DNA from: Rheinheimera sp.
Lineage (GTDB): Bacteria; Pseudomonadota; Gammaproteobacteria; Enterobacterales; Alteromonadaceae
Assembly (NCBI RefSeq): GCF_020217005.1
Contig: NZ_JAIWOI010000052.1
Span: forward strand, 1-10,000
Direction: 5' to 3'
Length of the DNA: 10,000 nucleotides
The notes under the pieces are model-generated. The model was not told where the DNA came from. It made no database searches and saw only the letters and a program-made list of their open reading frames with translations. Both the position numbers and the translations under genes were made by a program. Of the stretch, positions 6,741 to 10,000 are shown piece by piece (position 1 is the first letter of the stretch; the number at the start of each line of letters is the position of its first letter).

Positions 6741-7274
6741 TTAGTCGTATGGGTTGTACTTTTTCTTTTTAAACTGGCTGAAGATTAACGTCAGAGCCAG
6801 CAGGCTATAGACCACAAAAATCACGCGAGTCCATACAGGCATTGACAGGTCCATAAAACGCCAGGCTATATCACCACACATCCCCGTTGGGTTAAATACT
6901 TCCGGAAACCATTTGTCTAAAGGTAATCCAAGTGGAAACTCCGGGAACAAACTGCAGGTGTATAAACCACCGGATTGTACCAACTCTTCTACACCTACGT
7001 GTTCATGAGTGATCATTAATCCCCATACAGAACTTGCAGTAAAACCAAGCAAAGCAGTCCAGCGCAACAAAGCATTTGTTGGTGAAACTAAGGGAATCAA
7101 GGCCGCCAGCAGTACACCGGCTAATGCAGCTCTGGCGTAAACACACAGCATGCAGGGTTGCAAATTCATCTGATATTGAAAATACAACGCCAGACCTAAC
7201 AACACAGCGGCCGACAAAGCTAATACAAGCCACGCCGATCGTTGTTTTGACCATTTTGCCAGACTGGATAACAT
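6741..7274 (-). CDS. dsbB: Disulfide bond formation protein DsbB
   Basis: This is an inner-membrane quinone reductase that reoxidises DsbA, passing electrons to ubiquinone and keeping periplasmic disulfide formation running. The 177 residues match the E. coli length (176). Four membrane segments are visible at about 13-31, 46-63, 69-87 and 148-166. All four essential cysteines are present: the CMLC pair at 41 and 44 in the first periplasmic loop, and Cys107 and Cys133 in the second. Arg48, four residues after the CxxC and required for quinone interaction in E. coli, is also kept. AAGGGA stands upstream of the ATG as ribosome-binding site. The gene diverges from fadR. In E. coli nhaB separates these two genes, but here they are direct neighbours. 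Confidence 0.96.
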   Translation of the reverse strand: MLSSLAKWSKQRSAWLVLALSAAVLLGLALYFQYQMNLQPCMLCVYARAALAGVLLAALIPLVSPTNALLRWTALLGFTASSVWGLMITHEHVGVEELVQSGGLYTCSLFPEFPLGLPLDKWFPEVFNPTGMCGDIAWRFMDLSMPVWTRVIFVVYSLLALTLIFSQFKKKKYNPYD

Positions 7275-7381
7275 TCGGATCCCTTTGTTTGATAAAACAA
7301 AACTATAAGTTGGTCAATCTAAGGCAAAAATCAAGGAAAGACAACCCAATGCTCGTCGAACAGCTATTTTTAATCCATAGC

Positions 7382-7409
7382 TTGTTAACTGCTTTGTCTC
7401 TGGTACAAT
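7382..7409 (+). promoter_or_regulatory. Probable fadR promoter
   Basis: TTGTTA (7382-7387) and an extended -10 element, TGG followed by TACAAT (7404-7409), are 16 bases apart upstream of fadR. A second perfect -10 hexamer TATAAT at 7430-7435 lacks a good -35. The first pair is preferred because of the TGn extension and because a FadR-like operator covers its -10. Confidence 0.45.
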
Positions 7410-7414
7410 CAGTG
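7398..7414. promoter_or_regulatory. Candidate FadR operator
   Basis: CTCTGGTACAATCAGTG resembles known FadR sites. Against the E. coli fadB operator as I recall it (ATCTGGTACGACCAGAT), 12 of 17 positions agree, including the CTGGTAC half and the CAG of the other half. It overlaps the TACAAT -10 box of the probable fadR promoter, a position suited to repression. Autoregulation is an inference. Confidence 0.5.
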
Positions 7415-7436
7415 CCATTTATCTGACATTATAATA

Positions 7437-7460
7437 ATGACAACGGGTTCCTCCGCATGA
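7437..7460 (+). other. Seven-codon mini-ORF overlapping the fadR start
   Basis: ATG at 7437 opens a frame of seven codons (MTTGSSA) whose TGA shares bases with the fadR ATG at 7457 (ATGA overlap). fadR itself has no clear Shine-Dalgarno sequence, so re-initiation after this mini-ORF could matter. It is probably fortuitous and has no visible ribosome-binding site of its own. Confidence 0.2.
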
Positions 7461-8176
7461 CTATGAATTTAATAAAAGCACAAAGCCCGGCTGGTTTTGC
7501 CGAAGAGTATATCGTTGAATCTATCTGGAATGGTAAATTTGCTCCAGGTTCCATTCTGCCGGCTGAGCGTGAACTGTCAGAGCTGATTGGTGTTACCCGG
7601 ACCACGTTACGAGAAGTGTTGCAGCGTTTAGCCCGTGATGGCTGGTTAACAATCCAACACGGTAAACCAACCAAGGTCAATAACTTCTGGGAAACTTCAG
7701 GTTTAAATATTCTGGAAACTTTAGCTCGTTTAGATGAAGAGCGGATGCCTGAATTGGTGGACGAGCTGCTCTCTGCCCGCACCAACATCAGCGCAATTTA
7801 TATTCGTGGCGCTATTAAAACTCATAAAGACCAGGTGATTGCCTCTTTTGCCGGTGCTGAAGATTTAGCCGATACAGCTGAAGCTTTTGCGGCTTTTGAC
7901 TACAACCTGAACCATGAAATGGCATTGCATTCTTCTAATCGTATTTATGTGCTGATTTTAAACGGCTTCCGTGGTCTGTATAACAAAATTGCCCGTTTTT
8001 ACTTCTCATCACCTGAAGCCCGTGAATTGGCGCGCCGCTACTATAGTCAGTTAAAGCAATACGCCGAAGCAGGTAAACATGATGAAGTCGTATTTGCAGT
8101 GCGCAAGTACGGTAAAGAGAGTGGAAAAATTTGGGCTGGTTTACGCTCACAAATTCCAAAAGATTTAATCGAATAG
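7457..8176 (+). CDS. fadR: Fatty acid metabolism regulator FadR
   Basis: This is a GntR-family dimeric regulator of 239 residues that represses beta-oxidation genes and activates fabA/fabB until long-chain acyl-CoA releases it from DNA. The N-terminal winged helix (about 10-75) is nearly identical to E. coli Fad[21 protein letters not shown] at 33-52 and the wing [10 protein letters not shown] at 61-70, followed by the conserved linker [19 protein letters not shown]. The C-terminal acyl-CoA-binding domain (about 80-230) has diverged more, with LDYN-type FDYN at 147-150 and [13 protein letters not shown] at 166-178. Such conservation predicts the same operator specificity as in E. coli. ATG 7463 would give an N-terminus closer to E. 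coli and is a plausible alternative start. The gene ends at a strong terminator. Confidence 0.97.
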
Positions 8177-8178
8177 TC

Positions 8179-8204
8179 AAAAACCGCCGAAAGGCGGTTT
8201 TTTT
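8179..8204 (+). terminator. Rho-independent terminator after fadR
   Basis: A ten-pair stem (arms 8179-8188 and 8193-8202), closed by a GAAA tetraloop and ending in seven T residues, begins two bases after the fadR stop. It is a textbook intrinsic terminator. Confidence 0.95.
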
Positions 8205-8210
8205 GTGCCT

Positions 8211-8328
8211 TCGTATTTGCAGCCGCAGCGTTGTTGACTGCGCGCCCGAGCCCAAGTCACATAGTGGACTATGCTCCTTGGGACTCGATTGCTTGTCGCC
8301 TAGCTGCAACAGCAATTACTTTGGCAAA
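8211..8328. repeat. Palindromic extragenic repeat element
   Basis: This element has nested dyad symmetry. The outer arms TTGCAGC (8217-8223) and GCTGCAA (8303-8309) are perfect complements. Inside, CGAG (8247-8250), CCCAAG (8251-8256) and CATAG (8260-8264) pair with CTATG (8269-8273), CTTGGG (8277-8282) and CTCG (8284-8287), leaving a TGGA loop, a 3x3 internal loop and one bulged A. It has no coding capacity that I recognise. The segment TTGTCGCCTAGCTGCAAC followed by an AATTACTTTGG-like tail is, from memory, a common intergenic repeat in Alteromonadales and Rheinheimera genomes. A REP-like or MITE-like dispersed element is the best description. The exact ends are uncertain. Confidence 0.6.
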
Positions 8329-8361
8329 ATTATCCTATAAGCTGTACTTACCTTGATCACC

Positions 8362-8390
8362 TTGTCATAGCAGTTAGGGCTGGTTATTAT
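8362..8390 (+). promoter_or_regulatory. Probable promoter of the desulfurase fusion gene
   Basis: TTGTCA (8362-8367) and TATTAT (8385-8390), each five of six to consensus, are exactly 17 bases apart. A further perfect TATAAT occurs at 8400-8405 without a good -35. The predicted start of transcription falls near 8397, within the inverted repeat that follows. Confidence 0.6.
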
Positions 8391-8394
8391 GTTG

Positions 8395-8424
8395 CCATAT
8401 ATAATATAACCTTTAGTTATATGG
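8395..8424. promoter_or_regulatory. AT-rich inverted repeat, candidate operator
   Basis: ATATAAC (8404-8410) and GTTATAT (8416-8422) are perfect seven-base arms around CTTTA. A wider pairing of CCATAT (8395-8400) with ATATGG (8419-8424) extends the symmetry to 30 bases. It covers the predicted transcription start and ends six bases before the ATG of the desulfurase fusion, a position expected for a repressor site. ArsR-type sulfur or metal sensors often use AT-rich dyads, but no regulator gene is visible here, so the binding protein is unknown. Confidence 0.45.
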
Positions 8425-8429
8425 TGTGA

Positions 8430-10000
8430 ATGATGCAAAAACCTGCGGTGCGACCACAAGAAATTTATCTTGATAATAATGCCACTACTCCAGTGTTAGC
8501 CTGCGCTGCAGCTGCAGCACAACACACCATGCAGCAGGGGTTTGGTAACCCTAGCAGCAGTCACAGTACAGGTATTAAAGCTAAAGTTGAGCTGGAGAGT
8601 ACCAGACAGCTGGCGCGCCAACTAATAGGTGCAGGCTCTGGTGATATCGTCTTTACCTCGGGTGCCACTGAAGGTATTCAAAGTTCAATTTTCTCCGCTT
8701 TGTTGCATGCTCGTTTATCTGGAAAAACCGGTCCTGCTTATCGTCTGCTCTACGGCGCAACCGAGCATAAAGCCGTGCCCCAGAGTCTGGAACACTGGAA
8801 TCAGGTGTTGCAGCTTGGGGCAACTATTACAGCTATCCCCGTGGATCAGCATGGTTTATTGGATTTTGACTTTATCCGCACTGAACTACCGAATACTTTG
8901 CTGATTTGCACTATGGCGGCTAATAATGAAACCGGTGTGAAACAGGATTTAGCAGCGTTGCAGCAGTTGATCCGGGGGGTTGCACCGCAGGTACTTTGGA
9001 TGGTGGACTGTGTGCAGGCGCTTGGCAAAATGTCACTGCAGTTGGAACAGATGACCATAGACTATGCACCTTTTAGCGGCCATAAACTCTATGCGCCAAA
9101 AGGTATAGGTTTTTTATATGTACGCAAAGGCACGCCTTATCAGCCATTGCTGGCAGGTGGTGGGCAGGAGAGTGGTTTACGTTCCGGCACTGAAAATTTA
9201 CCCGGTATTGCAGCATTGCAGGCAATTTTTCAGCAGTTGGCTTTAAAACAAGATTCAGTCTTTCAGCCTGAAACCCAGCTCTGGAGCTATCGCGCGCAAC
9301 TGCTGTTTGCATTACGTCAGGTTTTTCCTGATTTAGTTTTGAACAGTGATCAACCCCATATAGTGCCAACCACCATCAACTTTTCGGTGCCAGGCTTTGC
9401 CAGTAAAGATATTATGGACTTGTTTGACGCTGCCGGTATCCGGGTCAGCTCTGGTTCTGCCTGTAGTTCCAAAATTCCGACCAGCTTTGTGCTCAATGCG
9501 ATGGGGTTGCCGTTATGGCGCAGTCAGGGCGCTATTCGTTTGTCTTTTGGGCCAGCGATGACACCAGCTGAGTGCCAGCAGGCCTGTCAGGCTATTTTGG
9601 CGTTAAAAACTGTAGTGAACTCCTGCTGCCTGGTATTAAGCGATGCCAGCAGCACAGAACTATTGCCACTGAATGGCTTAGTGCAGTTAAAACACGAAGA
9701 TTTGTGCAGCTATTTGTTGGTATCAGCCGAAACGTCAGAAGTCATCATTATCGATGCAGTATTGCCTCTTGCGCGGCGTATAGCTCAGCTAGTACAAGGG
9801 CATCAGCTGAAACTACGGGCTATTCTTGATACTCATCTGCACAAAGACCATCCTTCAGCCAGACCAGAACTGGTTACTTTGTTAAAAGATGTGCTGGACC
9901 CAATCCCCACAGACCTGCTCGGTTGGCCTCTGGCTGAATCAAAAATTACTATGGGTACTTATAAGGTGCAGAAATGGTCGACCCCGGGTCATAGCCCAGA
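8430..10000 (+). CDS. Cysteine desulfurase fused to MBL-fold (ETHE1-like) domain, 3' end outside window
   Basis: The frame is open for 523 codons to the window edge. Residues about 11-395 form a class V aminotransferase of the NifS/IscS type, which removes sulfur from cysteine: YLDNNATTP at 13-21, NNETG at 165-169, the PLP lysine Lys219 in SGHK, RSGTEN at 251-256, and the persulfide cysteine Cys345 in SSGSACSS. After a short linker with a Cys399-Cys400 pair, residues from about 413 begin a metallo-beta-lactamase fold: SYLLVSAETSEVIIIDAV, then THLHKDH at 468-474 (His469, His471, Asp473, His474), then TPGHS with His521. This resembles persulfide dioxygenase and glyoxalase II proteins. The remaining metal ligand and the C-terminus are not seen. 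No iscU, iscR or sufE is adjacent, so a role in Fe-S assembly is not indicated. The start is ATG 8430 or 8433; an in-frame TGA stands immediately before 8430. Confidence 0.88.
   Translation, partial: MMQKPAVRPQEIYLDNNATTPVLACAAAAAQHTMQQGFGNPSSSHSTGIKAKVELESTRQLARQLIGAGSGDIVFTSGATEGIQSSIFSALLHARLSGKTGPAYRLLYGATEHKAVPQSLEHWNQVLQLGATITAIPVDQHGLLDFDFIRTELPNTLLICTMAANNETGVKQDLAALQQLIRGVAPQVLWMVDCVQALGKMSLQLEQMTIDYAPFSGHKLYAPKGIGFLYVRKGTPYQPLLAGGGQESGLRSGTENLPGIAALQAIFQQLALKQDSVFQPETQLWSYRAQLLFALRQVFPDLVLNSDQPHIVPTTINFSVPGFASKDIMDLFDAAGIRVSSGSACSSKIPTSFVLNAMGLPLWRSQGAIRLSFGPAMTPAECQQACQAILALKTVVNSCCLVLSDASSTELLPLNGLVQLKHEDLCSYLLVSAETSEVIIIDAVLPLARRIAQLVQGHQLKLRAILDTHLHKDHPSARPELVTLLKDVLDPIPTDLLGWPLAESKITMGTYKVQKWSTPGHSP

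Follow-up and report, generated by a model that had tools for sequence, protein, structure and literature searches.

The 10,000-nucleotide window analysed here (positions 1 to 10,000 of contig NZ_JAIWOI010000052.1 of Rheinheimera sp., assembly GCF_020217005.1) carries at 8430..10000, on the forward strand, the gene for a three-domain protein in which a cysteine desulfurase (CD) domain, a persulfide-dioxygenase (PDO)-like metallo-beta-lactamase domain and a rhodanese (Rhd) domain follow one another in a single chain. The three-domain fusion is real. With modest confidence, we infer that this CD-PDO-Rhd protein converts cysteine to alanine and sulfite, an inference that takes in its activities, the order of sulfur transfer and the product.

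Results

In the open reading frame list, the ATG at 8430 opens a frame of 523 whole codons that runs to the window end, where codon 524 is cut. Genome pieces of 10,000 bases each were examined, and on contig C118, the next by number after the contig of the window (C117), the frame resumes at once and supplies residues 525-749 and the stop codon (L005:2-679), giving a protein of 749 residues. C118 would therefore adjoin C117, to judge from the contig number, the unbroken frame and the 85% identity of the C118 part to a relative, L009.

Within the genus, a frame of 693-814 aa was found in 20 of the 21 other genomes (cut by a contig edge in G016), and the C-terminal half was matched in the same 20; the twenty-first, G013, has a fragment only, at a contig edge. 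In the family, 55 of 196 genomes matched the C-terminal half at 1e-20, the genome of the window included, and the matches in 54 of the 195 others sit in frames of 738-818 aa (in G050 at a contig edge). In the order, the C-terminal half was matched in 41 of 394 genomes; 40 of the 393 others have frames of 747-806 aa, and G496 additionally has one 353-aa protein. The family and order draws overlap, and the desulfurase half was deduced from frame length where the locus sequence was not fetched. Because frames of the same kind recur in genus, family and order and the frame continues on C118, an assembly or frameshift artefact joining two genes, which the original prediction had named as its first possible refutation, is ruled out.

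The CD domain (residues 12-383; 8463..9578, forward strand, as are all features in the window) was assigned as NifS/IscS-like Aminotran_5 by Pfam and NCBIfam, with the aid of L009. It contains the lysine expected to form the Schiff base with pyridoxal phosphate (PLP), Lys219 in SGHK (9084..9086), the expected catalytic persulfide cysteine, Cys345 in SGSAC (9462..9464), and the substrate arginine, Arg370, each conserved in all 233 distinct fused sequences. Cys400, in the linker (9627..9629), is near-invariant in the fusion (224/233). The PDO-like domain, placed by its relatives at approximately residues 415-640, begins in the window (9672..10000) and ends on C118. It includes Cys426 (9705..9707; 230/233), for which the aligned position in BpPRF, the PDO-rhodanese protein of Burkholderia (Paraburkholderia) phytofirmans, is not a cysteine. 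The HLHKDH motif spans His469 to His474 (9834..9851), THLHKDH supplying H469, H471, D473 and H474; His469 and His521 of TPGHS (9990..9992) are the first and second expected iron ligands, each kept in 229 of 233. The third ligand, Asp543, whose loss would have made the domain non-catalytic in the original prediction, is present on C118, and the 2-His-1-carboxylate iron triad (H469, H521, D543) is thus complete. Counterparts of Arg139/Asp141 and His171/Tyr173 of the persulfide dioxygenase AcPDO are R552, D554, H584 and Y586, all encoded on C118; they are kept in 214, 178, 230 and 229 of 233 sequences, respectively. C636 (230/233) corresponds to AcPDO C224 and aligns with the CG cysteine of BpPRF. 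The C-terminal Rhd domain (approximately residues 655-745) bears Cys717 in the loop CRSGNRS. As read from the sequence alone, the chain thus joins a CD and a rhodanese, both with their catalytic residues, with an extra PDO-like domain between them.

The cut-off 523-aa frame gave Aminotran_5 at an E value of 1.1e-59 and Lactamase_B below threshold only, and the 225-aa C118 part alone gave Rhodanese at 38.7 bits, above the cut-off of 22.2. All three domains passed their Pfam cut-offs in two full-length relatives (89-91% identity). The NCBIfam equivalog cut-offs for NifS/IscS were not reached (275.1 against 530.75; 209.1 against 643.2). The original prediction had described one uninterrupted frame with Lys219, Cys345, THxHxDH and TPGHS, and all lie where it placed them; its calls of a desulfurase and an ETHE1-like domain proved correct, as did its guess that a rhodanese might follow.

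The exact iron triad was intact in 85 of 89 diverse fused members, whose C-terminal halves share 29-57% identity with that of L009; retention of the triad at such low identity requires selection. A fold search with the whole-protein model of L009 gave desulfurases only among the matches listed, and the C-terminal half was therefore folded alone. For the middle domain, PDOs ranked first by both profile and fold search on relatives, and its model is a PDO-type fold. Assignment of the middle domain to the persulfide-dioxygenase kind is therefore supported by profile, fold and family-wide conservation of the mono-iron triad.

Among the best 80 of 573 confirmed candidates, carriers belong to Rheinheimera, Alkalimonas, Arsukibacterium, Alishewanella, Shewanella, Parashewanella, Pseudoalteromonas, Thalassotalea, Thalassomonas, Colwellia and further genera. 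No operon partner common to all loci was found in the 80 named loci. FadR (44/80) and DsbB (45/80) genes lie upstream of the fusion gene and genes for a ChrR-like protein (44/80) and a sigma factor (43/80) downstream, the ChrR and sigma factor names resting on one Pfam-tested copy each. This set belongs to the Rheinheimera-Alkalimonas-Arsukibacterium-Alishewanella loci, and the gene has other neighbours in Shewanella and Pseudoalteromonas. In the window, the DsbB and FadR genes lie directly upstream (6741-8176); in Shewanella and Pseudoalteromonas, neither was seen next to the fusion gene. In L115 the gene immediately before the fusion gene (8162-8740) encodes a possibly exported protein, for which a weak match to DSP-PTPase was obtained, L115 being the one copy tested. 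A gene of this kind stands at the same place in seven of the 80 loci, all Shewanella (also L099, L101, L104, L106, L114 and L120).

Elsewhere in the same genome, contig C252 (L182, 3669-5733, forward strand) encodes a stand-alone PDO-like protein, a TauE/SafE sulfite exporter and a rhodanese in a row. With this separate, putative persulfide-to-sulfite cluster, the host may handle sulfite and may not need the fusion for ordinary glutathione persulfide. A second stand-alone PDO-like metallo-beta-lactamase is encoded at C170:8994-9692.

Discussion

In the proposed mechanism, the PLP domain would strip sulfur from L-cysteine, leaving a persulfide on Cys345 and releasing L-alanine. The persulfide would be handed to rhodanese Cys717, and the mono-iron site (His469, His521, Asp543) would oxidise the Cys717-borne sulfur with O2 to sulfite, so that the net reaction would be cysteine + O2 + H2O to alanine + sulfite; sulfite and a second rhodanese persulfide could leave as thiosulfate. 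Cys345 to Cys717 to iron may be taken as the simplest working order, and it is plausible that the chain channels cysteine sulfur through to sulfite.

Several observations weigh against this proposal, and the first concerns glutathione. In type I PDOs, glutathione is contacted by Arg190 (AcPDO numbering). According to PMC6060420, this residue is not kept in type II PDO, and AcPDO alanine variants at several of the active-site residues checked here are inactive or nearly so. At the Arg190-equivalent position, none of the 233 fused sequences has Arg or Lys (V603 in the window protein). Arg stands there in 14 of 18 stand-alone relatives from a set chosen by the HxHxDH and HDY motifs, in which conservation is partly built in, and in 15 of 19 when all 19 loci were taken with no motif filter. 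The column of AcPDO Lys212, a further glutathione contact, depends on the alignment, with Lys/Arg in 13 of 18 stand-alone sequences in one and 0 of 19 in the other, and is left out of the comparison. All eleven active-site residues checked are kept in 27 of 89 fused members, as they are in the window protein, versus 18 of 19 stand-alone relatives, the exception, L139, having His at 586; the triad is complete in a further 58 fused members that lack one or more of the eleven, and of these 30 depart at 473/474 and 35 at 552/554.

Because the glutathione-contact Arg is absent from the fused family, the middle domain may act on something other than glutathione persulfide, and sulfur is perhaps not routed via free glutathione persulfide. 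This qualifies the channelling of sulfur to an oxidising domain put forward in the original prediction. The lost contact makes a last transfer via a protein-bound persulfide, or another thiol instead of glutathione, worth considering. Tentatively, the protein may be a glutathione-independent protein-persulfide dioxygenase, in which a desulfurase-loaded rhodanese arm presents its own persulfide to the iron with no free sulfur intermediate; marks of such a change would be the lost contact Arg and the extra Cys400 and Cys426, which vanish with the iron site in the Massilia relatives described below.

Those relatives bear on the place of oxidation in this protein line. At the level of the phylum, the whole protein was matched at 1e-58 in 10 of 398 genomes, of which nine fall in its own order; the tenth, G1181, lies outside it. 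In the order of G1181, this genome and two others among 300 group with Massilia/Telluria proteins of 587-704 aa. In the Massilia-type set, the best 120 of 3583 (P0121-P0240), K219, C345, R370 and C717 are each kept in 120 of 120, and no sequence has an intact iron triad. C400 and C636 occur in none of the 120 and C426 in 17, in an eroded middle part whose alignment is uncertain, and Pfam Lactamase_B was not found in two Massilia-type proteins tested, P0121 and L152 (L174 and L175 are also of this type). In a CD tree, used for unrooted grouping only since both outgroup branches were longer than 9, one outgroup row (L003_out) was a frame of a different gene and no usable outgroup remained, the Massilia-type rows form one branch (100/99) beside a triad-intact fusion, L168 (100/100). 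Outside Massilia, L162 has Gln at 469 and Tyr at 521, two of the three iron ligands being lost, and lacks C636 as well. By sequence comparison, the predicted CD-Rhd sulfur-passing pair is the constant part of this protein line, and the putative oxygenase site is lost at least in the Massilia branch and, separately, in L162. Since the Massilia relatives keep both sulfur-transfer cysteines without the iron site, oxidation is not the sole job of the protein line; this point, too, qualifies the original prediction.

These losses favour a reading, in our view unlikely, in which the protein would work above all as a CD-Rhd that donates persulfide, be it for protein persulfidation or to deliver sulfur, and the middle domain would be a spacer, a regulator or an overflow valve that is fading, as in Massilia. 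The relaxed second-sphere residues of the fused family also fit such a donor, as does the in vitro activity of a CD-Rhd without PDO described in PMC8931425; the near-complete retention of the exact triad in such divergent C-terminal halves argues against it.

A rather less likely alternative is that two enzymes are loosely linked, a PDO-Rhd acting like BpPRF on thiosulfate and glutathione persulfide, to which the desulfurase merely adds persulfide. The C-terminal half aligns with BpPRF end to end. In the class, where the broad C-terminal profile matched 256 of 369 genomes, the best six outside the window among the matches listed are proteins of 345-375 aa that span PDO and rhodanese, four with the rhodanese cysteine loop. 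All frames listed for the class have 627 aa or fewer, among them two of 620 aa, in G814 and G657. Against this linkage stand the missing type I glutathione-contact Arg and the modelled rhodanese placement. The C-terminal model superposes on BpPRF domain by domain only (full-length rmsd 16.6), and the rhodanese is therefore probably placed differently relative to the PDO.

A glyoxalase II-like role of the middle domain, as a thioester hydrolase with a dinuclear metal site, is very improbable: among NCBIfam models, GloB scored best on the L009 C-terminal half (E value 1.7e-14; 53.8 bits, below the cut-off of 200.8) and the window protein retains D473 and H474, but PDOs come first by profile and fold, and the dinuclear ligands are not family-wide (D473 in 62 and H474 in 56 of 89) while the mono-iron triad stays.

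The gene content of the hosts also counts against the proposed conversion of cysteine to sulfite by the fusion. The host has a stand-alone PDO-like gene besides it, and cysteine dioxygenase is present in only one of 196 family genomes; as its absence is family-wide (195/196), carriers of the fusion are not singled out. Cysteine dioxygenase was considered as a pattern complementary to the fusion, and with one genome carrying it the comparison was uninformative.

Each domain is known, and two-domain CD-Rhd and PDO-Rhd fusions have already been described; for CD-PDO-Rhd no description was found in the open-access literature searched, and the three-domain combination appears undescribed. If channelling is true, cysteine dioxygenase would not be the only aerobic way of turning cysteine into alanine and sulfite: a second would be contained in a single protein distributed across Alteromonadales-like gammaproteobacteria, and would be a clear case of persulfide oxidation on a protein carrier. 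The Massilia variants, which naturally lack the iron site, would serve as ready-made controls.

The CD domain has the fold and catalytic residues of NifS/IscS, yet scores far below the equivalog cut-offs; a separate desulfurase of IscS size is encoded elsewhere in the genome (C231). BpPRF (5VE3-5VE5), a PDO followed by a rhodanese, shares the iron triad, the GR-D motif, HDY and the CG cysteine with the fusion; unlike it, BpPRF lacks a desulfurase and has the glutathione-contact Arg. CstB of Staphylococcus aureus, which we take to be structure 3R2U, and an Alicyclobacillus MBL-rhodanese protein (3TP9) also join metallo-beta-lactamase (MBL)/PDO and rhodanese in one chain, but are weaker matches with longer chains and without a desulfurase. 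The CD-Rhd of Pseudorhodoferax sp. Leaf274, like the fusion, has desulfurase and rhodanese in one chain with both catalytic cysteines. According to PMC8931425 and PMC12319549, it is a bifunctional homodimer in which the Rhd cysteine accepts sulfur from the CD cysteine; with GSH or beta-mercaptoethanol, desulfuration of cysteine falls roughly ten-fold when the Rhd cysteine is lost. The protein is employed in the CyReB sensor (PMC12319549). Compared by its description (PMC8931425), the 54 kDa CD-Rhd has C334 and C466 132 residues apart, whereas in the fusion C345 and C717 are 372 residues apart with the PDO domain between them.
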